From Candidatus Bipolaricaulota bacterium (GTDB lineage: Bacteria > Bipolaricaulota > Bipolaricaulia > UBA7950 > UBA9294), in the NCBI GenBank assembly GCA_030612485.1, contig JAUWNS010000050.1:1-14218 (forward strand): a stretch of DNA of 14,218 bases, given 5' to 3'. Below the pieces are notes generated by a model, which saw only the letters and a list, made by a program, of their open reading frames with translations, was not told the DNA's origin and searched no databases. Of the stretch, positions 2,622 through 13,776 are shown in pieces (positions within the stretch are counted from its first letter, which is position 1; every line of letters begins with the position of its first letter). The translations under genes and the position numbers were made by a program.

Positions 2622-4361
2622 GTGCAGGGTGCATCATTTGTTGGCTGGGGGGTAAGGCAACTGGACAAGATACCGAGAGCGAAGCTGCTTTGGATCATTG
2701 GAGTCATCCTTCTGAATGCCTCCATAGTATATGCGGTCCCTACGGCGAACGACGATGCTGCATCGGTCAGCGAAGATGGTTCTGTCCTTATAGGTGTTCT
2801 TGCAAATGACGTGGGGGCTACATCCATCGTGTCGATAACCAGCCCTCAGCACGGTACGGCAACAATCGATGGCGATTCAGTCCGATATCTTCCCGACCCG
2901 GATTATTGTGGCCCGGATGTGTTTTCCTATACAGCAAGCGACGGGAGCAACACGGATACAGCCCAGGTGACGATCACCGTGATTTGCGTCAACGATGCAC
3001 CGGTGGCTGAGGATTCAACAGTCACAACGCTTCCGGGTGTCGAAATCATGTTCTCTCTGCGGGCGGAGGATCGTGACATCGACCCGCTTCATCCTGAGGA
3101 ACATCCCTTAGTCTTTACAATCCGCGAGGGGCCGGAACACGGAACCGTCACAAATGGCCTGGCCGTGGTTTTCTACGAGGCTCCGCACACTGCCGTGGCC
3201 GATTTGGTCTATACCCCTGATGCAGGATTCACGGGAACAGACCGGATTACGTACGCTGTTACCGACCCAACGGGAGCAACGGCTATGGGACAGATCGATA
3301 TTGACGTAGGCAAGCCATCGCACGTAGGAAGGTTCGCTGGTAGCTGGGCGGGTTCGTTCACGGTGGGTATTGGGGCATTCTCGATTGATGCCTTTAGCAA
3401 TGTACTTTCGGCGGTCTACGAACTCGACCCACTGCGTCTCAAGGCGACCGCCTCGTGGAACAAGTTGTCTTTCTCATCGTTTACAATCAACGCAGATGTC
3501 GCAGTCGCTGGGCTTGCAACGTTGCGCTCGACCTTGGCCTTCGATCCAAGTCAGCTTGCTTTCAATTACTTCCGCACAACCACGACGTTCGACTTGTTTG
3601 ATCTACGGGTCCGACACACCTTCTATTTGACGATTCCCCAGACAAACTCCTATCAGCAGTTCTTCCTCCGGACGAGCCTTGCCGGAGTGACGATTACGAA
3701 TACAACAAAGTTCATGGCTTGTCCGATCTGTTTCTCGGAGAACGAGCTCCGTGTACGCTGGTCCTGGGAGCCGTGTGACCTCAAGGTTGACACAAAGCTG
3801 AAGACTACGGCTGAAGATGGGTTTGATTCCTTCTCGATCTCGTTGACGGAGATCTCCCTCTTTCGTTTGCCGTTTCTCAGGATCGGCCTGAATCTTAAGA
3901 CCACTTTCACGACATCCAACAAGGAGTTGGCACCGTCCTTCACCTGTCGGACAGAGTGGATCGATTGCATCAAGCTACGCTGTGAACTCGACGCTGACGA
4001 TATGCTCCTTGATGGGGTTAATATCTATGGGATTGAGATCCGTCACAACTTCCTCGGTGGCGTGGATATCCGGATGGCGACGTCATTCGATGAGACTAAG
4101 AACGCGTCACTCACGGGATACTCCCAGTACTTCGAATCCTTTATCATCTCCGGACCGTTGTCCTCCTGCTGTGGCGCCCCAGGGCGCTGGCAAATCGGTA
4201 CCTATTATTCCTGCGATGCCACAACCCTCTTCGATTGGGGAATGACGGTGGCAAAAGTGGATATGGGCCTCACCGACCAGTTTCGGTTCTCATTCGAAGC
4301 CAAGTTCACCGACAACCCCGCTGATACGGAACTAACTTTCGGTTGGCGGGTCCTCTGGTAA
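2622..4361 (+). CDS. Secreted protein with two cadherin-like domains and a beta-barrel-like C-terminal region
   Basis: 579 residues from GTG 2622. A signal peptide runs to about residue 38 (hydrophobic core LLWIIGVILLN, cleavage near VYA). The n-region is unusually long and GTG 2622 lacks a Shine-Dalgarno; a CTG at 2661, just after GGGGGGTAAGG, would give a more ordinary signal peptide, so the start is open. Residues 39-122 and 124-229 are Ig/cadherin-like repeats (VLANDV, YTASDGSNTDTAQVTITV, then HPLVFTI, PEHGTV, YTPDAGFTGTDRITY). The second is clearly homologous to the cadherin-like domain of the upstream gene. Residues about 232-579 are long alternating polar/hydrophobic strands with a final ELTFGWRVLW. 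A C-terminal aromatic residue is typical of outer-membrane beta-barrels, so I infer a barrel displaying an Ig-like head. No family is recognised for that half. It could instead be a secreted beta-helix or jelly-roll protein. Confidence 0.75.
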   Translation: MQGASFVGWGVRQLDKIPRAKLLWIIGVILLNASIVYAVPTANDDAASVSEDGSVLIGVLANDVGATSIVSITSPQHGTATIDGDSVRYLPDPDYCGPDVFSYTASDGSNTDTAQVTITVICVNDAPVAEDSTVTTLPGVEIMFSLRAEDRDIDPLHPEEHPLVFTIREGPEHGTVTNGLAVVFYEAPHTAVADLVYTPDAGFTGTDRITYAVTDPTGATAMGQIDIDVGKPSHVGRFAGSWAGSFTVGIGAFSIDAFSNVLSAVYELDPLRLKATASWNKLSFSSFTINADVAVAGLATLRSTLAFDPSQLAFNYFRTTTTFDLFDLRVRHTFYLTIPQTNSYQQFFLRTSLAGVTITNTTKFMACPICFSENELRVRWSWEPCDLKVDTKLKTTAEDGFDSFSISLTEISLFRLPFLRIGLNLKTTFTTSNKELAPSFTCRTEWIDCIKLRCELDADDMLLDGVNIYGIEIRHNFLGGVDIRMATSFDETKNASLTGYSQYFESFIISGPLSSCCGAPGRWQIGTYYSCDATTLFDWGMTVAKVDMGLTDQFRFSFEAKFTDNPADTELTFGWRVLW

Positions 4362-4623
4362 GAGATATCAACGTTATTTCCTGATGTTCCAACAACTCTA
4401 TGATTCTGCGGGCCACGTCCTGTCAAGGGGTGTATTGGTCCATCCTTAATATCCTTCCTTCGGTGGCCTGGTCTTAACTCCAATCTACCGAGTTCGATGT
4501 CGCGATAAATGAGGACGGCGTTAGCAAGCGTTTGCTCGGAAAGGAGAAAGAGGCTGTACTCTTCCATTAACCAGGCCTGTTCCAGCTTTTCAGGCCGATC
4601 ATCGAGCGGACGGATCTGCCCTC
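4362..4623. other. Intergenic region upstream of the first cyclic-di-GMP riboswitch
   Basis: No convincing gene. A minus-strand reading frame crosses it (4630 to 4205), but it starts with TTG without a Shine-Dalgarno, covers the -35 box at 4624 and runs 157 bases into the end of the cadherin/barrel gene. An 8-bp inverted repeat, GGCCTGGT around 4475 and ACCAGGCC around 4570, is the only structure noted. No U-tract terminator for the upstream gene was seen. Confidence 0.4.
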
Positions 4624-4652
4624 TTGACAACGTGATGCGGTTGTGATATAGT
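4624..4652 (+). promoter_or_regulatory. Strong sigma-70-type promoter driving the riboswitch leader
   Basis: A perfect TTGACA (4624-4629), a 17-base spacer, and TATAGT (4647-4652) preceded by TG at 4644-4645 (extended -10). Transcription would begin near 4659, about 25 bases before the riboswitch aptamer. This is the best promoter in the window. No comparable promoter was found before the second riboswitch, so this one may drive both. Confidence 0.75.
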
Positions 4653-4680
4653 AGTGATACTTATATGTCTGAGTTGTCCT

Positions 4681-4752
4681 GAAAAGGCAAACCTGTCGTA
4701 AGGCAGGGACGCAAAGCTACGGACCTTAAAGCTAAGGTAGCCGGGTTGCCAG
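4681..4752 (+). promoter_or_regulatory. Cyclic-di-GMP-I (GEMM) riboswitch, copy 1
   Basis: The layout matches the class I cyclic-di-GMP aptamer. P1 is GGCAA(A)CC at 4686-4693 with GGGTTGCC at 4743-4750. P2 is CCTGTC (4692-4697) with GGCAGG (4702-4707), capped by the GNRA tetraloop GTAA. Next comes the diagnostic junction GACGCAAAGC (4708-4717). P3 is formed by GCTAC with GTAGC and ACCTT with AAGGT. The 3' strand of P1 is also the 5' arm of the terminator at 4741-4776, so ligand binding should favour P1 and prevent termination (an ON switch). It sits in the leader of the RHH-MshEN-like gene that starts at 4810. Confidence 0.93.
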
Positions 4753-4776
4753 GGAATACTGGTGACTCGGTTTTTT
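4741..4776 (+). terminator. Riboswitch-controlled intrinsic terminator
   Basis: CCGGGTTGCCAG (4741-4752) pairs over 12 positions, including three G-U pairs, with CTGGTGACTCGG (4759-4770), loop GGAATA, followed directly by six T residues. The 5' arm overlaps the P1 3' strand (4743-4750) of the aptamer, so the two folds are mutually exclusive. It lies 33 bases before the ATG at 4810 and would attenuate the downstream gene when cyclic-di-GMP is low. Confidence 0.85.
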
Positions 4777-4809
4777 CTTGGTATCGGGGAGAACGAGGAG
4801 AGGAGAAAG

Positions 4810-5127
4810 ATGCAGACAACGATCTACTACAGTGACAACGACAGTTACGTGATCAAACAGGTCGACATGAAGGGACGCCGAGAGCGCAAGAGCCGCTCTG
4901 CGGTGATCCTCTCCATCCTGGAAGAGTATTTCGAGCGCGAGAAGCGCATCGGTGAGATCCTGATCGATCTCGGTGCCATCTCCCACACCGATCTTGCCAA
5001 GGGCCTCGAACTCCAGAAAAGCAAGTTCACAAAGAAGCTCCTCGGTGACATCCTTCTTGAGGAGGAGCTCGTCGAGCAAGAAGCGCTCGAGCGCGCGGTG
5101 ATCATTCAAGGAAGGAGCCAAGGATGA
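4810..5127 (+). CDS. Small regulator-like protein: RHH-like N-terminus fused to an MshEN-type cyclic-di-GMP-binding domain
   Basis: 105 residues from ATG 4810, chosen for the purine-rich GAGGAGAGGAGAAAG just upstream; the in-frame GTG at 4762 lies inside the terminator hairpin. Residues 1-45 fit a ribbon-helix-helix fold: strand TTIYYS (3-8), helix A about 11-25, then KSRSAVILSILEEYF (27-41), resembling helix B of CopG/Arc-type DNA-binding proteins. Residues 46-100 match the MshEN (T2SSE N-terminal) pattern R-L-G-x13-L-x3-L-x2-Q. Motif I is R46-I-G48, L62, L66, Q69. Motif II is L77-L-G79, L93, V97, Q100, with the Arg replaced by Leu and a 7-residue spacer where 5 is usual. MshEN domains of type II secretion and type IV pilus ATPases bind cyclic-di-GMP; here no ATPase follows. 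I infer a one-component cyclic-di-GMP-responsive DNA-binding regulator. RHH is less sure than MshEN. It is preceded by a cyclic-di-GMP riboswitch and followed, apparently in the same transcript, by another. Confidence 0.8.
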   Translation: MQTTIYYSDNDSYVIKQVDMKGRRERKSRSAVILSILEEYFEREKRIGEILIDLGAISHTDLAKGLELQKSKFTKKLLGDILLEEELVEQEALERAVIIQGRSQG

Positions 5128-5153
5128 AACCAAGGATGAAACCAAGGATGAAA
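5118..5153 (+). repeat. Three tandem copies of a 12-bp unit at the regulator's stop codon
   Basis: CCAAGGATGAAA occurs three times without a break (5118-5129, 5130-5141, 5142-5153). The first copy contains the TGA stop of the regulator (5125-5127) and an overlapping ATG (5124). Each copy offers AAGG followed by ATG. The 12-bp unit keeps the frame, encoding repeated MKPR in the +2 frame. Likely origin is slippage or duplication. Confidence 0.9.
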
Positions 5154-5249
5154 CATTCTGTGCGGTTGGGGGGCAGGCTGTCAATCGAGCGCCCTGCTTC
5201 CGTACTTGAATGGCTTAATGGTCTGTGCCTTGGAGGCCGGACTACATGA
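5124..5249 (+). CDS. Possible 41-residue ORF translationally coupled to the regulator
   Basis: ATG 5124 overlaps the upstream TGA (ATGA) and has AAGGAG at 5112-5117, six bases away. The peptide begins MKPRMKPRMKHSVRLGGR and is basic at its N-terminus, ending at TGA 5247-5249. No family is recognised. Coupling signals argue for translation. Short length, the repeat-derived start and lack of recognisable composition argue that it may be fortuitous. Confidence 0.25.
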   Translation: MKPRMKPRMKHSVRLGGRLSIERPASVLEWLNGLCLGGRTT

Positions 5250-5333
5250 TGGGTGGTTTTGGTGAGGGTATCGAAACTCAGGGCAAGGAGGCGAAGCTCG
5301 GAACAAGCACCAAAGTTTAACGTTTGAGGTGAA

Positions 5334-5406
5334 CGAAAAGGCAACTCTGGGGTGACCCAGACACGCAAAACTTCGGGCCTCTTTCAAGGAGGCGGCCGAG
5401 TTGCCG
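5334..5406 (+). promoter_or_regulatory. Cyclic-di-GMP-I (GEMM) riboswitch, copy 2
   Basis: P1 is GGCAACT (5340-5346) with AGTTGCC (5399-5405). P2 is CTGGG (5347-5351) with CCCAG (5356-5360), capped by GNRA loop GTGA. The junction ACACGCAAAAC (5361-5371) corresponds to the conserved A-C-G-C-A-A-A segment. P3 is GCCTC with GAGGC, within about 5376-5396. It lies in the leader of the structural operon, 47 bases before ATG 5453. No U-tract terminator follows, unlike copy 1; the downstream segment instead can mask the Shine-Dalgarno, so control is probably translational. The helix sequences differ from copy 1, so this is not a recent duplication. Confidence 0.9.
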
Positions 5407-5410
5407 AAAT

Positions 5411-5448
5411 ACCTTTCTAGAAAAAAGCAAACACTCTAGGAGGTGTTT
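5411..5448 (+). promoter_or_regulatory. Expression platform able to sequester the Shine-Dalgarno
   Basis: The Shine-Dalgarno AGGAGGT (5438-5444) is eight bases from ATG 5453. Two competing helices can cover it: 5411-5420 (ACCTTTCTAG, one bulged C) with 5436-5444, and AAACAC (5429-5434) with GTGTTT (5443-5448). In addition, GAGTTGC of the P1 3' strand can partly pair with 5427-5436, which could link aptamer state to ribosome-site access. The direction of the switch cannot be decided by eye. Confidence 0.55.
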
Positions 5449-5452
5449 CTGA

Positions 5453-6067
5453 ATGAAGAAGTACATAGTAATGAGCATAATCGCAATAGTGGCCCTCCTG
5501 CCGTTCGCGGCATGGGCGGATACTGGTGGAACGGCGGAGGCTACGCTAACTTTTGAAGCCGTCATAAACATGATTGTAGACGGCGAAGCCTGGTTAGATC
5601 TGACGATCGACCAGCCGATGATCGCCAGCATAGCCGAGGACGACGGATTTGTGGGACAGACGGACTGGGACGACTCCGACGACGACATAACGGTGACAGT
5701 GCAGTCCTTTACGGCTTTTCAGGTCTACAGTTCCTACTTCGGCACTGGAAGTCTGATTGCCAAGATCTCCGACAAGGACACTTTCCTTTACCTTGATGCT
5801 TACGCACTGCAGTGGGAACAGGTGACCGCTACACCAGTAAGCCCGGCGGGAGGCTTCAACTACAGTGCCCCTCCCGACACGGGAGATCTCACTCACCTGA
5901 TTGACTGGGGCAACCCAGCTCCTGCAAACATGTTCAGTGCTACGCCTGGGGAGACGCTGGGCTACAATGTTCAGTGGGATCCAACTAAACTATCCGCCGC
6001 TAACCTAAACGCGGACGATGCAATGGATCTGACAATCTACTTCGTCGTCACTGACTCTTCCACCTAG
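5453..6067 (+). CDS. Small secreted subunit-like protein (candidate fibre/pilin subunit)
   Basis: 204 residues. Signal peptide 1-22 (MKK start, core IVMSIIAIVALLPF, cleavage AWA/DTGG). The mature protein is all-beta in character, acidic and cysteine-free. It begins DTGGTAEATLTF, a strand of alternating hydrophobic residues, and ends with a strand DLTIYFVVTDSS. The DTGG-[ST]-A-x-A start is shared with the next gene's product, and the C-terminal pattern D-x3-L-x(n)-A-x-D-x(2)-T is shared with the protein at 7758, which suggests related subunits. I recognise no exact family; spore-coat-U or pilin-like subunits are the nearest comparison. It is the first gene after the second riboswitch, with Shine-Dalgarno AGGAGGT. 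It would be secreted to the periplasm or surface, and its role as a structural subunit is inferred from position next to a PapD-like protein. Confidence 0.8.
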   Translation: MKKYIVMSIIAIVALLPFAAWADTGGTAEATLTFEAVINMIVDGEAWLDLTIDQPMIASIAEDDGFVGQTDWDDSDDDITVTVQSFTAFQVYSSYFGTGSLIAKISDKDTFLYLDAYALQWEQVTATPVSPAGGFNYSAPPDTGDLTHLIDWGNPAPANMFSATPGETLGYNVQWDPTKLSAANLNADDAMDLTIYFVVTDSST

Positions 6068-6071
6068 TCTC

Positions 6072-6087
6072 AGGGAGGACTAAAATC
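6072..6087 (+). promoter_or_regulatory. Strong Shine-Dalgarno placed in front of an ATC codon
   Basis: AGGGAGG (6072-6078) is six bases from ATC 6085-6087. The frame opened by that ATC encodes a textbook signal peptide. No ATG, GTG or TTG lies at a usable distance; the nearest in frame is GTG 6115, inside the hydrophobic core. This suggests AUC initiation, a mutated start, or a base error for ATG. Confidence 0.6.
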
Positions 6088-7761
6088 AACAATCTTCTGG
6101 CTAAAGTCTTTCTGGTGTTCCTGATCGCCACGGTAGCGCTCGCGCTGCCCGTACTGGCCGATACCGGAGGTTCGGCCTCGGCGAGCCTGATAATTGTCGG
6201 GATACCGGAAGAGGAACAGACAGGCAGCGAAGTGGCAGGGGGAGGTGGGGCGGTTGATTGTGAACCGCTTTGCCCTCCTCCTATTCCTGCCCTTTACGCC
6301 ACCAAGCGCGCCGATCTCGCGGAAGACCTCAATGGTGATGGGGTGATCGATCCAGGCGATTCCCTGCGTTACACCATGCTCGTCACCAACTTCGCGCCGG
6401 TCCCGATGTTTGGCGTCGATTACGTGGAGATCATCGATCCTCATGTGCGCCTCATCCCTGGTTCTTGGGAAGTCACCAAAGGGAACGTAACGACTCGCGA
6501 TTTTGAGGGGATCGAGGTCCTCGCCTATCTTTTGGGGTCGCTCAACCCGGATGAAGTCGTGATTTTCTCGTTCGAGGTCCGCGTTCCGTATGATTTGGCT
6601 TCAAGCGTAAACGAGCTCGTGGGACAGGGGATTATATACGCCGATACGACGTCCCCCATCGTCACCGACAATCCGGATACGATGTTCCTCCAGGATGCCA
6701 CGCGGACACCTATCGGTGGTGCCGCGCCAGTTATCCTCGCGACGGCGGGTGGGGGAGCTTCCGTTGAGGAGCTAGCCACGCAGGGAGCTGCAGCTCAGGA
6801 GGCGGTCTCTGACGCCATCAAGGGGGCTGCGGTCATTCCGAACCCCGAGATTCTGCGCGTTGTCGCTAAACCCGAGGAAGTCGTCGAGTATGGAGTAGGC
6901 TTTGTGAACACAACCTCTGAACCACTCACAGACGTGCGGCTGGTGGATCTTGTGGGTCCGCACATGCACGTACAAATGGACTCGCTTACTCCCGCGTCAG
7001 CCCGTGTCTGGTCGTTTGGTGAGTTGCAGGTTGTAATAGCCGATATAGACCGACTCGAACCGGGCGAGACGGTCGTCCTCGGTTACCAGACGGTGGTGCA
7101 TAGTTACGTTCCCCCGGAGATAGCATATACCGCCTCGCGAGCTATTGTGTCGAGCCGTAATGGGACCACTCAATTATCGGACGATCCGCTGACCCAGCTT
7201 CAAAACGACCCCACAGCGGTGCTGTTCCCCTACCAGTGCGTGGGGGATGGCGCCTGGACATGGGATGATTGGCTCGATGTTGTCTCGCAAGCCCCGACAG
7301 GGCTGTGGCCACTCGTGATGCAGGAGAAGGATGAATCGCAGCACCTGCGATGGGTGCTCTACGGCGGTGATTTCTTCGGAGATCTCTCCACTCACCCGTC
7401 GGTACGCCCGCCGCTTTGGTCGGAGTGGGCGCTGGTCGGGTTAGTGGAAGTGCCGTTCGAGAATGCAAGAGATTCCAACCTCGGCTTTCGGCTAGCTCAA
7501 CGTGAAGAGCCGTATGTTGAGGGTTTCCTCGCCGAGGAGCCCCTGTTTATGTGGACCAAGTACGGCATGCCTCTCTACGGCCGCGTGCCGGCCACCGACA
7601 CTGGAGAGCTCTTGTCGTGCGACGGGTTCAACCAGGACTTCTGCGGTAAGGGGTATCTGCCGCTGTTGGTGCAACTCAACTGGTCGGAGGACTGGGATAT
7701 GCGCTGGCTGGAGGATGACCTGATCGTCGCCACGGTGAGCGAGGGGGAGGTGCAGCGATGA
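6085..7761 (+). CDS. Secreted DUF11-repeat protein sharing its mature N-terminus with the upstream subunit
   Basis: 558 residues if initiated at the ATC at 6085; the conventional alternative GTG 6115 cuts the signal peptide short and has no Shine-Dalgarno. With the longer start, the signal peptide is 1-25 (NNLLAKVFLVFLIA core, cleavage VLA/DTGG). Domains: DTGGSASASL start; linker EVAGGGGAV (about 49-57); DUF11-like repeat about 70-210, containing a Ca-loop-like DLNGDGVIDPGD; an Ala/Gly-rich segment (211-248); a second DUF11-like repeat (250-368); and a Trp-rich C-terminal region (375-558) of no known family with cysteine pairs. It lies 17 bases after the subunit gene and overlaps the next start by ATGA, so it is in the same operon. 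A large adhesin or tip-type component of the same surface structure is plausible but unproved. Confidence 0.8.
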   Translation: MNNLLAKVFLVFLIATVALALPVLADTGGSASASLIIVGIPEEEQTGSEVAGGGGAVDCEPLCPPPIPALYATKRADLAEDLNGDGVIDPGDSLRYTMLVTNFAPVPMFGVDYVEIIDPHVRLIPGSWEVTKGNVTTRDFEGIEVLAYLLGSLNPDEVVIFSFEVRVPYDLASSVNELVGQGIIYADTTSPIVTDNPDTMFLQDATRTPIGGAAPVILATAGGGASVEELATQGAAAQEAVSDAIKGAAVIPNPEILRVVAKPEEVVEYGVGFVNTTSEPLTDVRLVDLVGPHMHVQMDSLTPASARVWSFGELQVVIADIDRLEPGETVVLGYQTVVHSYVPPEIAYTASRAIVSSRNGTTQLSDDPLTQLQNDPTAVLFPYQCVGDGAWTWDDWLDVVSQAPTGLWPLVMQEKDESQHLRWVLYGGDFFGDLSTHPSVRPPLWSEWALVGLVEVPFENARDSNLGFRLAQREEPYVEGFLAEEPLFMWTKYGMPLYGRVPATDTGELLSCDGFNQDFCGKGYLPLLVQLNWSEDWDMRWLEDDLIVATVSEGEVQR

Positions 7762-8630
7762 AATCAAGGAGCCTGCTGCTAATTGTCCTCGGGCTGATTT
7801 TCATCACACCCGTTGTTCAGGGCATAACTTGCGATTACTCAGTTGACCCTGATGATCAGCGGTACTTGGCTGGGAACCCGAATTGCAGTGACGTGCAGGA
7901 TTGCTCTGACTGTATAGAATATAAGCTAGAGGGAGAAGAGCTCACAGGTGGTACTCATACAGATGGTACGATCACGGTAACCCTTACGGTCCGGGATTAC
8001 AATGAGGAAGAATGGTTGACATTTGACTGGATATCCAACATCCCGGTCACTGCCGTTATCGTCAAAGGTGGAAAAGTTACCGTAGACGAGCAAGACTACT
8101 TCGCCTATGTGTATAAGTACGGTTCCCCGCGGACTTCGGATGAATGTTTGTCCGCTCCTTCGGGGAAAGGTATTAGCCACATCACCTTCTGCTACGTTGT
8201 TCCTCAAATTGCGATTACGGTCAACTGGTATACTGAGGGCGTTTCTATCACTCAGCCGATTATTAGTGAATGGGCTGCAAGTCCGACCGAGTACACGCTG
8301 TTGTTCGGCAACCTACGGGTCTCAGTGACGGCGACGGTCGACTATGATCTGGGAATCTACTACACGGTGAATTCATTGAGCGATTTTTCGCCCCCCTCCG
8401 GGGCGACGCCCCTGTCGTTTGAGTACGGGACGGGCAGCGGCACCTGGACGTCAATCCCCCCCGAAGGAGGCACAATGCAAACCCTGCCCGCCCCTAGCGA
8501 AATTGGAACTAATAGAGAGCATACGTACCCCATGCGCGTTGACTTGGCTCAACTTGGGACTGGGGACCAAACTGCGGGTGACTCCATCACGTTCCAGGTG
8601 CATGTGGTGGCGACAGCCTCGGGGATCTAG
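7758..8630 (+). CDS. Secreted two-domain protein: Cys-rich SHITFCY-type domain plus subunit-like C-terminus
   Basis: 290 residues. ATG 7758 overlaps the previous TGA (ATGA) and has GGGGGAGG upstream. Signal peptide 1-22 (LLLIVLGLIFI, cleavage near VQG). Residues 25-155 hold six cysteines (25, 43, 49, 52, 130, 145) and the signature FDW...AVIVKGGK...SD...P...GISHITFCY, a pattern I know from many uncharacterised secreted bacterial beta-sandwich proteins. Residues about 156-290 are a second beta domain ending YPMRVDLAQL...AGDSITFQVHVVATASG, which aligns with the C-terminal strands of the 5453 product. Function unknown; a specialised or capping subunit of the same structure is the simplest reading. 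Cysteine-rich folding would fit a periplasmic oxidising environment. Confidence 0.8.
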   Translation: MKSRSLLLIVLGLIFITPVVQGITCDYSVDPDDQRYLAGNPNCSDVQDCSDCIEYKLEGEELTGGTHTDGTITVTLTVRDYNEEEWLTFDWISNIPVTAVIVKGGKVTVDEQDYFAYVYKYGSPRTSDECLSAPSGKGISHITFCYVVPQIAITVNWYTEGVSITQPIISEWAASPTEYTLLFGNLRVSVTATVDYDLGIYYTVNSLSDFSPPSGATPLSFEYGTGSGTWTSIPPEGGTMQTLPAPSEIGTNREHTYPMRVDLAQLGTGDQTAGDSITFQVHVVATASGI

Positions 8631-8669
8631 GCATGGGACACCGGCGGTATCCTCGATGGACAAGCGATA

Positions 8670-8699
8670 CTGTCATATTCGTAGTTGATGTGTTAGTAT
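8670..8699 (+). promoter_or_regulatory. Possible internal promoter before the chaperone-like gene
   Basis: CTGTCA (8670-8675), an 18-base spacer, then TGTTAGTAT, an extended -10 with hexamer at 8694-8699. The same TAGTAT hexamer is used at 2601. The match is modest, but the 117-base gap after 8630 is the first real gap within the operon. Confidence 0.3.
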
Positions 8700-8704
8700 C
8701 AGGA

Positions 8705-8731
8705 GCTGATGTCCCCTAAAGCGACATCGGC
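8705..8731 (+). other. Leader hairpin just upstream of the chaperone-like gene
   Basis: GCTGATGTC (8705-8713) pairs with GACATCGGC (8723-8731) over 9 bp, one of them G-U, loop of nine bases, ending just before the Shine-Dalgarno AAAGGAGG at 8732. No U-tract, so not an intrinsic terminator; possibly an mRNA stabiliser or protein site. Confidence 0.4.
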
Positions 8732-8747
8732 AAAGGAGGCGTCGTGC

Positions 8748-9581
8748 ATGAATCGGTTTAGGCGGCTACATTGCGGACTTCTCGTTGCTTTCCTGCTCGT
8801 CTTGGTTGTTCTCTCCGCCTGGGGGAGCATGTCGGTGGCGCCGCTCTCTTTACGGCTTGACATACCGCCTGGCGAAGACGGCGCGGGCGTCTTCCTCGTT
8901 CGCAACACTGGCAACGACCCGATCATTGTCAACCTCTCGCTTCACGATTGGTGGCGCACACCAGAGGGGAATTTTCAAATCCTAGCGGCGGAAACACTGG
9001 ATCGGTCCTGCGCTCCGTGGATGGTCTATTCTGCTACCACGGTGAACCTTGCCCCCGGTGAGGAGACGCAGATCTCGGTGCAACTCTCAGTGCCTGAGGA
9101 GGCAACAGGGGATCACTGGGCATTATTTCTTGTCGAAGAGCAGCCACAACCGGTGGAGGAAGAGCAGGCCGAAGAAGGGTTGACGAACACCACTCGTGTG
9201 GTCGTCACCTATGCGGTGAAGATCCTCCAGCAGGATTCGCTCAACGCCGCGCCCGATGCCGAGATCCAGGGAGTCGAGCTTGTCCAAGAAGCTCCCTTTG
9301 AACTGCTCATACGCTTTGCGAACACTGGCAATTCGCACATTACCACTGAAGGAACGATCGAGATCCGTGACATTTTCGGGGAAACGGTGCGAAGCTTCGC
9401 CGTCGATCCCTTCCCCACCCTTCCTGGAGAAGAGCGACCGTTGCGCATCCAAGACTCTGCTGAACCCCTGGCCGCGGGGACCTACTACGCCATCGCTCTG
9501 CTCGACTTTGGGGGCGAATACCTCATCCAAGGCGGGCTCCCCTTCGAGGTAGGGCCAGCCGATGTGACTGAAGGCCCTTAG
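8748..9581 (+). CDS. PapD-like two-domain periplasmic chaperone candidate
   Basis: 277 residues from ATG 8748, chosen for AAAGGAGG eight bases upstream; an upstream in-frame ATG at 8709 would fall in the leader hairpin and weaken the signal peptide. Signal peptide about 1-26. Residues 28-162 form an Ig domain with PapD-type order: VAPLSLRLDI at the start, VRNTGNDP, APWMVYSATTVNLAPGEETQISV, PEEATGDHWALFLVEE, then a long strand RVVVTYAVKIL (150-160) with Lys158 where classical chaperones have a G1-strand Lys. Residues 168-269 form a second Ig-like domain (FANTGNSHITTEG). PapD-family chaperones hold pilin subunits in the periplasm by donor-strand complementation. Position between subunit-like genes and a large beta-rich protein supports this. 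Alternative: a DUF916/WxL-interacting-type protein, though there is no C-terminal membrane segment. The acidic PVEEEQAEEG insert is unusual. Confidence 0.75.
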   Translation: MNRFRRLHCGLLVAFLLVLVVLSAWGSMSVAPLSLRLDIPPGEDGAGVFLVRNTGNDPIIVNLSLHDWWRTPEGNFQILAAETLDRSCAPWMVYSATTVNLAPGEETQISVQLSVPEEATGDHWALFLVEEQPQPVEEEQAEEGLTNTTRVVVTYAVKILQQDSLNAAPDAEIQGVELVQEAPFELLIRFANTGNSHITTEGTIEIRDIFGETVRSFAVDPFPTLPGEERPLRIQDSAEPLAAGTYYAIALLDFGGEYLIQGGLPFEVGPADVTEGP

Positions 9582-9815
9582 CCCATTCCGGTGACGAGGA
9601 CATCAAGCACCCTCCTTCTGGACTAGCGGGAAGCGCGATTGTCGTCTTCTCCCGCAGTATTCCTCCCACCTGCTCTCGTTCCACCTGTCCATCGCTCTTA
9701 TGCTGGCAGCATAAGGGAGGAGGACACACGGTGTAATCGCATTTCTGCCCCGAGTTTCTTGGGTTTCGTGTGTCAATGGTGGATGGCTATACGACGAACA
9801 ACTGTCCCCGACAGA
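9582..9815 (+). promoter_or_regulatory. Structured 5' leader of the large beta-rich gene, with a start-stop site
   Basis: The leader holds GCGGGA (about 9626-9631) able to pair with TCCCGC (about 9649-9654); an 8-bp hairpin CTTATGCT (9697-9704) with AGCATAAG (9708-9715); and a strong Shine-Dalgarno AGGAGG (9718-9723) followed, seven bases later, by GTG-TAA (9731-9736), a start codon followed at once by a stop. TCCTCCC at 9661-9667 could mask the Shine-Dalgarno core at 9715-9721. No in-frame start for the downstream gene lies at a usable distance from this Shine-Dalgarno. Confidence 0.4.
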
Positions 9816-12656
9816 ATGCTGCGGTTAATCGCGCTACTGCCGCTTCTATTTATCGGTCTCTTCCTGGCAAGTTCCCACGTATGTAACGCGGCTGACTATG
9901 CGGTCTCCATCTCGGCAACTGCCACCAAGTTCGTTGACGTAGGCGATCTTGTGACGCATGTGTTTACGATTGTCAATCAGGGAACTAACGATGACGTATA
10001 CGCGTTGGATCTCACCCTCCCGCAGGGTTGGGTCGCTCTGCCCGTTCCGGCCACTATCTCTGTTCCAGCAGGGGCAACCAGAATTGTATTCGTGAATTCG
10101 TCAGTTCCTTCTACAGCCGAGGCGGGCACTTACGAGATAACCCTCAAGGCAACCTCGCTGCACGACTCAGCCATTCACTCACAGGAGACGGCCTATGTGC
10201 AGGTACGCTCATCGTGGGGTTTCGAGCTGAAGTGGGTGCGCATTCCACCTCGGGGACAGCCGGGTGAACGGCTTCAGGGAAGCTTCAAGGTGACCAATAC
10301 CGGCAATTCGCCGGATGAATACCAAGTGGATGTAGTGGCAAGTGCTGGCTGGGAAGCAGGGGTGATGTTCGAAGAATTCGGTCTCCTGCCCGGAGAATCC
10401 CGAGAGGTGGAGTTCTACGTACTCGTACCTAACACAGCCACCGCAAAGGCGCAATACGGGGTCACGCTTACTGTCACATCGATCCAGAATCCATCACTCA
10501 CGCGTACACTAAGCACGACGGGCCGGCTCTCACCCCCTCCGCCAGAGCTTGTGGGAGGGACACTCTTTCCTGAGTGGATGATGTCCGTTGATTTTGATAT
10601 CGACCAACAGGCCAATCCTCGACTGAGTGTACGGGGATGGGGGGATATCGAAGGGTTTGGACAGATAGATGCAGGGGGCAGCCTGACAATTGCAGGGATT
10701 CAAAGCGCACGCGCATGGATTGACACCGGCGACTGGAGTATTTTCTTGGATGGCGGTACGATCGTCGGCCCGTTCCTCGGGGTCTCGGGTAGGCCGCTCT
10801 TTGGTGGTCATATCGGGGAGTTGGGGCTGTGGCGGTTGTTATTCACAGAAGATAGCAAGGGGTTTTATGGACTACTGCGTAACGATACCTCTTCATTACG
10901 GTTTTCTTTGGGAAGCGATAGCATTCGTGAGCTTGCGTTCCAGCAGATCGACCTGCGTCATGATTTTGCAGGCCCTGCTTCCGGGCGGTTCCTCATCGGC
11001 CGTGGAGTACAGACCGAATCGGGGATAGTCTGGAGTCTGGGTGGGGATGTTGAATTAGAAGAATGGGAGTTCGGTGGGTCATTCATGAGTGTCGGACCCG
11101 GCTACCCCAACCAGACACCAAGGTCTGAGGGGAGAGTATACGTGTCGTACGACGGCTGCCCATTCCCTGTTGACTCCTCTTGGTCCTCGGTCAGCAGAGA
11201 AGCCGGTCTTCCGCCGGATGAGTACAACCTTACCGCAAACAGTTTCCGTGCATCTGCGCCAATCCTCTCATTCGATGTCCTTTCCTGTACGCTCTCACTG
11301 CAGTTCGGTACACAGCAAAGCGACGATGCGCCCCGAAGCGTAGACGCACATAGTTACTCATTAGGCTGTTCATTGGCGGGGAATACCCCTATTCCCTGGT
11401 CGTTTGCTACTAGTTCCCAATGGCTTAATGACCAGATTGCCGGGACCACGACGACCTCTCAACAGGTGACGATCGGGGGAGAAGTTGAATTCGGTGAAAT
11501 CAGCACAATCTTGAGCGCTTCGATACAAGCGCTACAGGGCGCAACAGGAATAACAACATCATCTGGTTTGTCCATTACGCTGAGCGACGACAATCTCCCT
11601 GGGTCGCCGGAGGTCACCTTCTCCATAGGCGGTGGGGGAGCGGGCGCGGAAGGTCAGTTAACGTGGAATCCCGCGCCTGACACCGAGGTAGTATGGACCT
11701 GGGAGCTTCCCTTATGTGGAGAGGGTTTCTCTACCGATATCTCCGTGCGTTTCCCGGCGGCATTCCCCTTCTGTGGTCCTACGAAAGGACGCATTTCTGG
11801 TCGTGTTATCGTAGATGTAAATGGGAACGGCATATGGGACTCCGGTGAAGAAGGGGTGAAAGGCGTTCTCCTCCTTGCCGATGACTACGAGGCGATCACC
11901 GGTAACGATGGCCGATTCGTCTTTCCACCGTTGGATCCGGGAACCTACGCGCTTGCGATAAAGAGCCTGCCTGCTGGGTTGGTCCCTGAGGAAGCCTTCC
12001 CGCTGGAGGTCTCTATATCAGCCGGGGACGAGCCACAGATCTTGATTCCGCTTCGGCCACAATCCTGGCTTCGCGTGCGTGTGTTCAGCGATGCTAATCA
12101 AAACGGCCAGAGGGAAACCGCGGAAAGAGGGGTCTCCGGTGTTCAGGCATTTGTGAGAGGTGAGGGACTAGAAAAAACCTTGAGGACGGACGCAAGTGGC
12201 AGGTTCATCATAGAAGTCCCGCCGGGCTCCTACACGGTCGCACTAGATGTGAGCTCCCTTCCTCAGCGGGTTGAGATGACAACCCCCCAGACCGTTGAGG
12301 TGGACATGCCTGAGTATGGCACTGTTGACGTCGAGTTTGGGGTTTACCAACGCCCTCGGCCGGTTGTAATCACCTTCGGCCCTCCAACCGCTTCCTTCGA
12401 TTTCACTCCTCAAACGCCAATAGTGGGAGAAACAGTGCGCTTTACTGGGATATCGAGTCAAGCGGTAAACGCAGAGATTGTGTCTTATGCATGGGAGTTC
12501 AAGCAGGGAGACATCAAGATTACGCAGAGCGGGGAGCAAACCGACACCGTCTTCGCGAAACCGGGCCTATGGCAGGTCTACCTCACGGTGACTGACTCAA
12601 ATGGTCTCAGGGGCGCAGCGAAGAAAGAGATCACCGTCGGTAAGGCTGGAGACTAG
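9816..12656 (+). CDS. Large secreted/outer-membrane candidate: NEW3-like repeats, beta-rich core, two SdrD-B-like domains, PKD
   Basis: 946 residues from ATG 9816, preferred because it gives a clean signal peptide (1-25, MLRLIALLPLLFIGLFLA, cleavage VCNA); ATG 9783 is possible and neither has a clear Shine-Dalgarno. Domains: two NEW3/CARDB-like Ig repeats (27-131, 135-236; VNQGTNDD, VTNTGNSPDEY); a Gly- and aromatic-rich beta region (245-650) of alternating strands compatible with an outer-membrane barrel; an SdrD-B/carboxypeptidase-regulatory-like domain (about 658-746; VDVNGNGIWDSGEEGVKG, DGRFVFPPLDPGTY); a second one (750-840; SDANQNGQRETAERGVSG); and a C-terminal PKD domain (856-941; AWEFKQGD, VYLTVTDSNG). 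Last gene of the block, 234 bases after the chaperone-like gene. By position it may be the usher-like or anchoring partner, but the core is about half the length of a usual usher barrel and no usher motif is identified. It ends in TAG. Confidence 0.8.
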   Translation: MLRLIALLPLLFIGLFLASSHVCNAADYAVSISATATKFVDVGDLVTHVFTIVNQGTNDDVYALDLTLPQGWVALPVPATISVPAGATRIVFVNSSVPSTAEAGTYEITLKATSLHDSAIHSQETAYVQVRSSWGFELKWVRIPPRGQPGERLQGSFKVTNTGNSPDEYQVDVVASAGWEAGVMFEEFGLLPGESREVEFYVLVPNTATAKAQYGVTLTVTSIQNPSLTRTLSTTGRLSPPPPELVGGTLFPEWMMSVDFDIDQQANPRLSVRGWGDIEGFGQIDAGGSLTIAGIQSARAWIDTGDWSIFLDGGTIVGPFLGVSGRPLFGGHIGELGLWRLLFTEDSKGFYGLLRNDTSSLRFSLGSDSIRELAFQQIDLRHDFAGPASGRFLIGRGVQTESGIVWSLGGDVELEEWEFGGSFMSVGPGYPNQTPRSEGRVYVSYDGCPFPVDSSWSSVSREAGLPPDEYNLTANSFRASAPILSFDVLSCTLSLQFGTQQSDDAPRSVDAHSYSLGCSLAGNTPIPWSFATSSQWLNDQIAGTTTTSQQVTIGGEVEFGEISTILSASIQALQGATGITTSSGLSITLSDDNLPGSPEVTFSIGGGGAGAEGQLTWNPAPDTEVVWTWELPLCGEGFSTDISVRFPAAFPFCGPTKGRISGRVIVDVNGNGIWDSGEEGVKGVLLLADDYEAITGNDGRFVFPPLDPGTYALAIKSLPAGLVPEEAFPLEVSISAGDEPQILIPLRPQSWLRVRVFSDANQNGQRETAERGVSGVQAFVRGEGLEKTLRTDASGRFIIEVPPGSYTVALDVSSLPQRVEMTTPQTVEVDMPEYGTVDVEFGVYQRPRPVVITFGPPTASFDFTPQTPIVGETVRFTGISSQAVNAEIVSYAWEFKQGDIKITQSGEQTDTVFAKPGLWQVYLTVTDSNGLRGAAKKEITVGKAGD

Positions 12657-12810
12657 CAGAGGAGAAAACGCCTCAGTCACGTGGTACTCTGACCACTCCT
12701 CAGATCCCACTTGAGAGTAGTCCGGTGGATGGGATATCTGGCAGCTTACTCTTTGGTATGGATGGTCTTGTCCCAAGGCTCATCCTCCAAATAGAGGATC
12801 GACACAAAAT
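12657..12810. other. Intergenic region between converging genes
   Basis: Only weak hairpins are seen, for example GTGGT...ACCAC near 12680. No U-tract terminator for the plus-strand gene and no gene were found. The stronger hairpin just to the right serves the minus-strand gene and may also block plus-strand transcription. Confidence 0.5.
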
Positions 12811-12853
12811 GGAGCGCGACTCTAGCCCATCCTCTGAGCTGGAGTCGCGCTTC
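12811..12853 (-). terminator. Intrinsic terminator of the asparagine synthetase gene
   Basis: A 16-bp stem, 12811-12826 with 12838-12853 (two G-U or T-G positions), loop of 11 bases. On the minus strand it begins 14 bases after the TAA at 12868-12870 and is followed by ATTTTGTG. The long GC-rich stem could also stop plus-strand readthrough. Confidence 0.75.
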
Positions 12854-12867
12854 CCTATACTCGAAGC

Positions 12868-13776
12868 TTAAATTGACCCAACTAACCCGGGGACCTTAGG
12901 AAAGAGACGTGCTTTTGCAACAGAGTCGAGTCCGCAGATGTAGCGGGTCAATCGCTCGATCCCAATTCCGAATCCGGCTGACGCCGGGATCCCCTCCTCC
13001 ACTACGGATAGGTACTGCGTGAACCGTTGCGGGTTGATCTTATCCTGCTTTAACCGCTTCAGGATCGGCTCTAGTTCGTGCTCCCGCTCCCCGCCAGAGA
13101 GTGCCTCAGCGTAGCCTTTCGGGTAGATGAGGTCCATGTCGAGGAGCACTCCTGGTCGAGCGGGGTCCTGTCGATCGTAGAACTCCCGCACCTCGCGGGG
13201 AAAGTCGATCACCCAGCTCGGTTCCTGTAACGACAGCGAGAGCGAATCGTCGAATTTCTCGCCGAATTGCTCCATTGCTTCTTGATAGGTGATCTGCGCA
13301 AATGGAGGAACAGGAAGCGAAAGCTCGCGGTTGAGGAACCTAAGTTCCTCTGCACAATGTTCCTTAACTCCATTTAAGACCGCAAGGAACAGCCCCTCTC
13401 CGATTTCCATGATGTCATCCCGCGTTGCATCCCGCATCTCGAGGTCGAGCTGGACAAACTCGGCAAGGTAGCGTCCGTATCTCGCTCGTTCCGCCGGTTC
13501 CATACGTACGTTCGGTGAGAAACAGAAGATCTTAGGAACGGTTCTAAGGGCAATCTGTTTGTGCAGGATCATGCTCTTGGTCAACTTGTACGGGGAGCCG
13601 TAGTAGTCGATCGCCCCGTCGTAAGTCTCGTGGTGAAGGGGGTCGGTGACCGGAGAGAGGATCACCGGAAGGATCTCGATGAATCCTTGTTCCCGCAGCT
13701 ATGCTCCTGCTGCACGCATAATCTCGCTCTTCACCTTCAACACGCAAATCAGTTCACTCTCTGTATGAATACGCAT
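12868..13776 (-). CDS. Archaeal-type asparagine synthetase (AS-AR; AsnRS-like without anticodon domain), interrupted by an amber codon
   Basis: From ATG at 13776 (Shine-Dalgarno AGAGGAG, six bases upstream) the frame encodes 302 codons, about the family's length (close to 294 residues in Pyrococcus abyssi, from memory). Codon 26 is TAG; the longest uninterrupted part starts at GTG 13665 (265 residues) and lacks the conserved lead-in LREQGFIEILPV. Class II aminoacyl-tRNA-synthetase-type catalytic motifs are intact: ILSPVTDPL (38-46), KSMILHKQ (67-74), motif 2 with R91-x-E93 and YLAEF (103-107), SGGERE (227-232), and motif 3 GFGIGIERL (268-276). The family converts aspartate, ATP and ammonia to asparagine in the cytosol and lacks the tRNA anticodon-binding domain, as here. 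Homology on both sides of the TAG shows it is one gene. TAG is also the usual stop in this window, so reassignment is unlikely; a base error or recent mutation is the likeliest cause. Confidence 0.85.
13699..13701 (-). other. In-frame amber codon inside the asparagine synthetase
   Basis: The minus strand reads GGA GCA TAG CTG CGG at codon 26, between a start with a good Shine-Dalgarno and conserved downstream sequence. One base change from a Tyr, Trp, Gln, Lys, Glu, Ser or Leu codon would explain it. Confidence 0.85.

Follow-up and report, generated by a model that had tools for sequence, protein, structure and literature searches.

Two cyclic di-GMP-I riboswitches around a gene for a putative c-di-GMP-binding protein: predicted serial control of a surface-protein operon in Candidatus Bipolaricaulota

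Introduction

How often can one second messenger be read along a single bacterial message, and at which steps? This question is raised by a stretch of 14,218 nucleotides (nt) from a Candidatus Bipolaricaulota bacterium (contig JAUWNS010000050.1, assembly GCA_030612485.1), which was analysed as a whole and is called the window in the following. On its + strand, two aptamers of the cyclic di-GMP-I (c-di-GMP-I) riboswitch type flank a short gene, and genes for probable surface proteins follow. The product of the short gene looks like a ribbon-helix-helix (RHH) N-terminus fused to a c-di-GMP-binding MshEN domain and is referred to as RHH-MshEN. A first-pass annotation of the window had described two dissimilar c-di-GMP riboswitches in series around this gene, the first transcriptional and the second apparently translational.

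Here, we present a computational follow-up of this locus, in which aptamers, competing hairpins, domain make-up and conserved order were computed for the window and its relatives. We consider it quite probable that a single transcript is tested for c-di-GMP twice in series, at termination and then at initiation, with both switches acting in the ON direction.

Results

Two aptamers with different expression platforms

The unit comprises the following features in the window:
4624-4652, + strand: sigma-70-type promoter for the whole unit, TTGACA-17-TATAGT, 11/12 consensus letters
4677-4754, + strand: c-di-GMP-I aptamer 1, RF03167, 70.0 bits, E 3.5e-15
4739-4772, + strand, to 4776 with TTTT: intrinsic terminator of riboswitch 1, hairpin with a 14-bp stem
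4810-5127, + strand: RHH-MshEN protein, 105 aa; residues 1-44 ribbon-helix-helix-like, 44-103 MshEN
5128-5325, + strand: intercistronic stretch without a promoter- or terminator-like site
5326-5331, + strand: GAGGUG, 5′ strand of the outer P1 stem, Shine-Dalgarno-like; pairs with 5410-5415 in the closed aptamer according to the folds
5331-5409, + strand: c-di-GMP-I aptamer 2, RF03167, 56.3 bits, E 3.1e-11
5406-5449, + strand: hairpin sequestering the Shine-Dalgarno sequence (SD), in competition with P1 and its outer extension
5438-5443, + strand: SD AGGAGG in the 3′ arm of this hairpin, 9 nt ahead of the ATG at 5453
5453-6067, + strand: probable secreted protein, 204 aa, the first gene under riboswitch 2

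A cmscan search of the window against Rfam (threshold E<=1; four overlapping, weaker hits from this clan omitted) returned these two aptamers only, both of the c-di-GMP-I type and on the + strand, and both match the covariance models of the c-di-GMP-I clan (RF01051/RF03167). They share 51 of 76 aligned positions and are thus dissimilar, as had been proposed. From the end of the first to the start of the second there are 576 nt, with the 318-nt gene in between.

Behind aptamer 1, the terminator hairpin has a predicted energy of -22.3 kcal/mol compared with -8.6 +/- 2.4 kcal/mol in shuffled sequences, none of 500 being as low. Its 5′ arm consists of the last 16 nt of aptamer 1, and because this 3′ strand is shared, aptamer and terminator are mutually exclusive. 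In folds of RNAs of increasing length, the aptamer pairing persisted through 4760 and the terminator pairing appeared once 4765-4770 was reached. It follows from the shared strand and these folds that transcription would continue upon ligand binding; the terminator excludes the bound aptamer, which is the hallmark of a terminating ON riboswitch.

The same features were found in the relatives described below, where counts out of 14 loci refer to the window plus 13 bracketed loci from the genome-collection scan. These loci hold 15 upstream aptamers, with locus L004 contributing two. A terminator overlaps the 3′ end of 14 of the 15, the overlapping hairpin of the first L004 aptamer being visible in the fold only and the terminator in L001 being weak (7 bp). 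A promoter with 11-12 of 12 consensus letters is found at the same place ahead of aptamer 1 in 13/14 loci, and L025 reaches 9/12. Switch 1 is predicted to be a transcriptional ON switch, and the overlap of its terminator with the aptamer supports the earlier assignment.

The platform of aptamer 2 is of another kind: downstream of it there is no terminator with a U-run, and the hairpin present at this place buries the SD and excludes P1. Its predicted energy is -14.8 kcal/mol, that of shuffled sequences -5.5 +/- 2.1 kcal/mol (0/500 as low). In the lengthening-RNA folds, 5410-5415 were paired with 5326-5331 at RNA lengths from 5415 to 5440, and position 5412 exchanged its partner 5329, held up to an RNA end at 5440, for 5443 from 5445 onward. 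The cost of opening the SD amounted to 11.5 kcal/mol in the full window RNA and 6.0 kcal/mol once aptamer and P1 were taken away; shuffling the aptamer letters gave 5.9 +/- 1.4 kcal/mol, and 0 of 60 shuffles came as high as the full RNA. Switch 2 is predicted to be a translational ON switch.

Recurrence of the arrangement in relatives

A scan of a genome collection covering 84,980 species yielded 61 loci, among them 30 full-length homologues of RHH-MshEN, 25 of which are labelled Bipolaricaulota or Acetothermia, the others bearing other phylum names or none. The 29 genomes holding homologues contain 37 full-length genes (four partial matches were left out). A gene was taken as bracketed if a same-strand aptamer was located within 300 nt upstream and another within 400 nt downstream. 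Counting from the best 103 scored candidates per genome, and with contig ends that may also hide aptamers, 15 genes are bracketed, three have an upstream aptamer only, three a downstream aptamer only and 16 neither. Among the genes at least 71% identical to that of the window (L001-L013), 12 of 13 are bracketed, the one in G012 being without aptamers; the window itself is a further case. The order for which the first-pass annotation had suggested a search in relatives is thus recurrent. It also extends to two bracketed divergent paralogues (G017:C114, G020:C31), whose second platform has the same design as that of the window and is followed by a protein that begins similarly; this design is present in G022:C109 as well.

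Several variants of the arrangement were observed. In L001, the sequence separating the gene from aptamer 2 (6334-6576) looks by eye as if the first terminator region and the beginning of the RHH gene had been copied there and had decayed, which hints at an origin of the double switch by duplication. L004 carries tandem aptamers before the RHH-MshEN gene (5667-5775, 5817-5946), each followed by a hairpin taking its 3′ strand, and one more aptamer after the gene, so that three switches lie on one unit. In L070, L071, L075 and L082 (G029, G028, G027 and G023), two aptamers about 570 nt apart occur without RHH-MshEN between them, each before its own small secreted-looking protein of about 143-172 aa, one of which is longer with an upstream start. 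Whole and partial c-di-GMP-I matches form dense arrays, five rows each within about 1-2 kb, in L072, L073 and L130 (G002:C177, G005:C217, G003:C8). Finally, the first aptamer in the bracketed cassette of L025 is preceded, at a distance of about 1.4 kb, by a GGDEF match (G024:C132:9581-10045).

The protein between the switches and a possible third level

The 105-aa open reading frame (ORF) passes the NCBIfam model NF053729 (c-di-GMP-binding, MshE-related) with 39.4 bits at a cut-off of 38, and its translation holds two copies of the MshEN motif (R/K/L)LGxx(L/V/I)(L/V/I)xxG(L/V/I)(L/V/I)xxxxLxxx(x)LxxQ. The PilF residues K167, Q190 and Q218 (PMC11731258) align to its R46, Q69 and Q100. Both glutamines are invariant in the two alignments made, and R46 is kept in at least 90% of a set of 43. 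Judged from these family-level features, the protein probably binds c-di-GMP, in agreement with the first-pass call. The family has 398 matches at E<=0.01, and among the 120 matches listed of these, identity ranges from 72 to 95% over at least 93% of the query. In G014, the homologue (G014:C21:11864-12178) has one TGA inside the matched frame and an aptamer upstream only.

With its RHH-like N-terminus, modelled by structure prediction as a single chain only, the protein may also bind DNA, and a third level of c-di-GMP control through it is plausible. If it represses the promoter of the unit, a negative loop would result; if it activates it, a feed-forward loop. The first-pass annotation had gone further, to three levels on one operon and a coherent feed-forward circuit. 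Neither is supported so far, and autorepression is as likely.

The strongest competing explanation bears on this point. It accepts the switches in series and supposes that RHH-MshEN acts elsewhere or has no DNA-binding role, which would leave the operon under two levels instead of three; in our estimation it falls only just short of being probable. In its favour, 16 of 37 homologues have no neighbouring aptamers, and the 15 first promoters, compared by eye, share no operator-like element outside the promoter core. On the other hand, RHH proteins commonly bind their own promoters, as is general knowledge, and ATGTCCMCTTGAC was found at the promoter of the aptamer-led RHH-MshEN gene in four divergent genomes (G014, G016, G017 and G020). 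It contains an inverted repeat, TGTC-N5-GAC, lying over the -35 box and occurs once or twice per genome in these four; it is absent from the close group of RHH-MshEN loci.

One transcript or two

The serial arrangement presupposes that both switches lie on one message. Between 4773 and 6200 of the window, no + strand promoter- or terminator-like site passes the scan, and 4739-4772 is the only + strand terminator-like site within 4300-6200. The gap between gene and aptamer 2 measures 203 nt, and the best promoter-like score there (5128-5330) is 6, that is, 7/12 letters minus one point for a missing -10 letter. From the gene start to aptamer 2, the best score is 8, which 43 of 60 shuffles also reached. 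The gap measures 9-23 nt in 8/14 loci, too short for a promoter. Because a promoter precedes aptamer 1, the gap is this short in 8/14 loci and the best window score is only 6, co-transcription of the two switches is likely in the window.

Some relatives weigh against this. L001 carries TTCACA-16-TATAAT (11/12) between gene and aptamer 2, unmatched by any of 60 letter-shuffles, L010 carries TTTACA-16-TATCAT (10/12) at this place, and L004, L006, L007 and L008 have promoter-like 9/12 matches inside the gene; elsewhere, two adjacent secreted-protein genes each have their own aptamer. An additional start between gene and aptamer 2 is therefore possible in some relatives. That riboswitch 2 is transcribed separately, from a promoter of its own, so that the two switches are neighbours and not in series, is nevertheless unlikely in view of the low window scores, the short gaps and the missing + strand terminator. 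The earlier statement that neither promoter nor terminator lies between the switches stands for the window and is not universal. The combination named there as contrary evidence, a strong start site directly ahead of 5334 combined with homologues that are unlinked, does not apply to the window.

Direction of the second switch

In 10/13 loci, the full RNA requires roughly 2 kcal/mol or more in addition for opening the SD, compared with the RNA lacking aptamer and P1. No terminator with a T-run was found after aptamer 2 in 10 of 13 judged loci (the contig of L013 ends there); the three terminator-like matches are the SD hairpin itself in the window and L001 and a weak 6-bp hairpin in L011. The SD is paired in the minimum free energy fold of all five platforms of the window's type (window, L001, G017, G020, G022:C109), and pairs adjoining it co-vary across these five (U-A/C-G; C-G/U-A/U-G), which is a small count judged by inspection.

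Two results qualify the translational reading. In the predicted folds of the bound form, the SD is only partly freed, and in the shuffled-aptamer control only five of 13 loci pass clearly (<=2/60) and two nearly (7-8/60), while six fail; the window is among the clearest. In several relatives, the SD-burying hairpin is weaker or absent. Given these control results, the case for the translational assignment of the first-pass annotation is strong in the window and in platforms of its type; in some relatives it is less certain.

An OFF switch, a non-switching remnant or an action through Rho or message decay would fit the partly paired SD and the score of aptamer 2, which lies 2.7 bits below the RF03167 gathering score of 59, its E-value nonetheless being far past chance. 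The exclusive pairing of 5410-5415 with either 5326-5331 or the SD side predicts ON, however, and the same design recurs with paired changes in divergent paralogues, making these alternatives rather improbable. In L002 (4960-5052), L005 (3512-3709) and L006 (6448-6552), a short leader ORF after aptamer 2 ends on the start of the secreted-protein gene, the overlap being ATGA in L005 and L006, which suggests that riboswitch 2 acts through translational coupling in these three loci.

Ligand of the aptamers

The best Rfam name for both window aptamers is c-di-GMP-I-GGC (RF03167), and a variant binding pocket was considered on account of this name. In the GACGCGAA stretch, GACGC(G/A)AA, the RF03167 consensus has G; both window aptamers, and all 29 aligned aptamers, have A, and the variant pocket was rejected. 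G20, A47 and C92 (Vc2 numbering), the core letters of the pocket, are present in both window aptamers and in 28/29, 29/29 and 29/29 of the aligned aptamers, respectively. Since A is found in 29/29 and the canonical G in 28/29, we read the aptamers as ordinary c-di-GMP-I, and both in the window would bind c-di-GMP.

A G-to-A change at position 20 marks relatives of the cGAMP type, and the upstream aptamer of L008 (5850-5947) carries this A, its downstream partner retaining G. That the aptamers respond to the related dinucleotide 3′,3′-cyclic GMP-AMP (3′,3′-cGAMP) instead of c-di-GMP, as this single aptamer might suggest, is very improbable given G at position 20 in the other 28, the window pair included, GGDEF domains in 28/29 genomes and an MshEN domain that implies c-di-GMP.

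Genes downstream of riboswitch 2

The 204-aa protein is perhaps a fibre subunit. Downstream of it, further ORFs lie on the + strand and probably belong to the same operon:
6115-7761, + strand: ORF
7758-8630, + strand: ORF
8748-9581, + strand: ORF
about 9639-12656, + strand: ORF with SdrD_B, PKD and NPCBM_assoc domains

The domain search gave no domain over the cut-off in the first three, and no + strand promoter-like site was seen in 5400-12900. On the - strand, the ORF 12868-13665 looks by eye like the catalytic portion of a class II asparaginyl-tRNA synthetase or an archaeal-type asparagine synthetase.

Discussion

From the computed features we infer that the ligand binds, that both switches are ON and that the unit is co-transcribed, and likewise the thresholds, the binding of the protein to DNA and the sign of the circuit; together, this would work as follows. 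A single transcript would begin just past 4652. At low c-di-GMP, the terminator 4739-4772 would form and RNA polymerase stop; with c-di-GMP on aptamer 1, the 3′ strand would be held by the aptamer, the terminator blocked, and polymerase would continue via the RHH-MshEN gene and riboswitch 2 into the surface-protein genes. After this first test of the signal, RHH-MshEN would be made, a protein that probably binds both c-di-GMP and DNA. On the read-through message, c-di-GMP would have to bind aptamer 2 as well, so that P1 and its outer stem close; this closure would deprive the 5406-5449 hairpin of its 5′ arm, and the ribosome-binding site of the first surface gene would become free. Because both aptamers would have to bind on one message, the same signal would be tested twice in series, in transcription and in translation. 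This double test should sharpen the response, and the regulator could appear at a lower c-di-GMP threshold than the surface proteins.

Control in series, first of transcription and then of translation, is well supported. More tentatively, and as a possibility that we do not yet call probable, the locus may represent a conserved three-tier c-di-GMP cassette, so far from Bipolaricaulota-type genomes, in which a transcriptional riboswitch, a newly recognised family of c-di-GMP-induced and c-di-GMP-binding RHH-MshEN regulators and a translational riboswitch confirm the signal stepwise before surface fibres are made. The locus would be a natural case in which a single second messenger is read several times on the same transcript and in which two RNA sensors of this signal flank the gene for a c-di-GMP-binding protein. 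Why bacteria layer RNA and protein sensors for one signal would become directly testable with reporters, and the locus points to an RHH-MshEN protein family in an uncultured phylum.

We know of no regulator gene between the riboswitches of the SAM-II/SAM-V tandem of Candidatus Pelagibacter ubique. This tandem is described as likewise reading one ligand with two riboswitches for transcriptional and translational control, but it joins two aptamer classes and its ligand is a metabolite (PMC4759541). Several c-di-GMP-I riboswitches in series on one message, as in the Bc3-5 triple of Bacillus thuringiensis and in a survey of contiguous riboswitches, are described as making the response more digital (PMC4759541, PMC12452182). 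Such tandem aptamers adjoin in one leader before one gene. In the window, the two aptamers are separated by a whole gene, they act through different platforms, termination and then initiation, and they gate different genes. The c-di-GMP-I riboswitch Bc1 also affects both transcription and translation, but through one aptamer with a long platform and incoherently, the downstream expression not tracking c-di-GMP (PMC11218506). Multi-level c-di-GMP control by riboswitch, c-di-GMP-binding transcription factor and proteolysis is described for Vibrio cholerae tfoY; there, the levels are encoded separately, the riboswitch acts in the OFF direction and VpsR-driven transcripts are without it (PMC7371385).

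On the protein side, the MshEN or GSPII-B domains of MshE and PilF share the fold, the two-motif c-di-GMP site and the key residues with RHH-MshEN (PMC5013675, PMC11731258). They sit on pilus or secretion ATPases, whereas here MshEN is fused to an RHH-like part; the domain is also mentioned for a response regulator, Bd2402 (PMC5013675). CdbA of Myxococcus xanthus is, like RHH-MshEN, a small RHH protein and binds c-di-GMP, but it is described as having no homology to known c-di-GMP receptors, as having overlapping c-di-GMP and DNA sites and as not being thought a classical transcription regulator (PMC7156744). In the open-licence PMC literature, we found, going by titles and abstract openings, no description of an aptamer-gene-aptamer arrangement or an RHH-MshEN protein, and our searches gave no riboswitch literature on Bipolaricaulota or Acetothermia; for MshEN together with ribbon-helix-helix, they gave the CdbA work and a Myxococcus MrpC paper. 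Measured against these systems, the layout is not a new category; it is real, conserved and unusual, and it is built of known parts.
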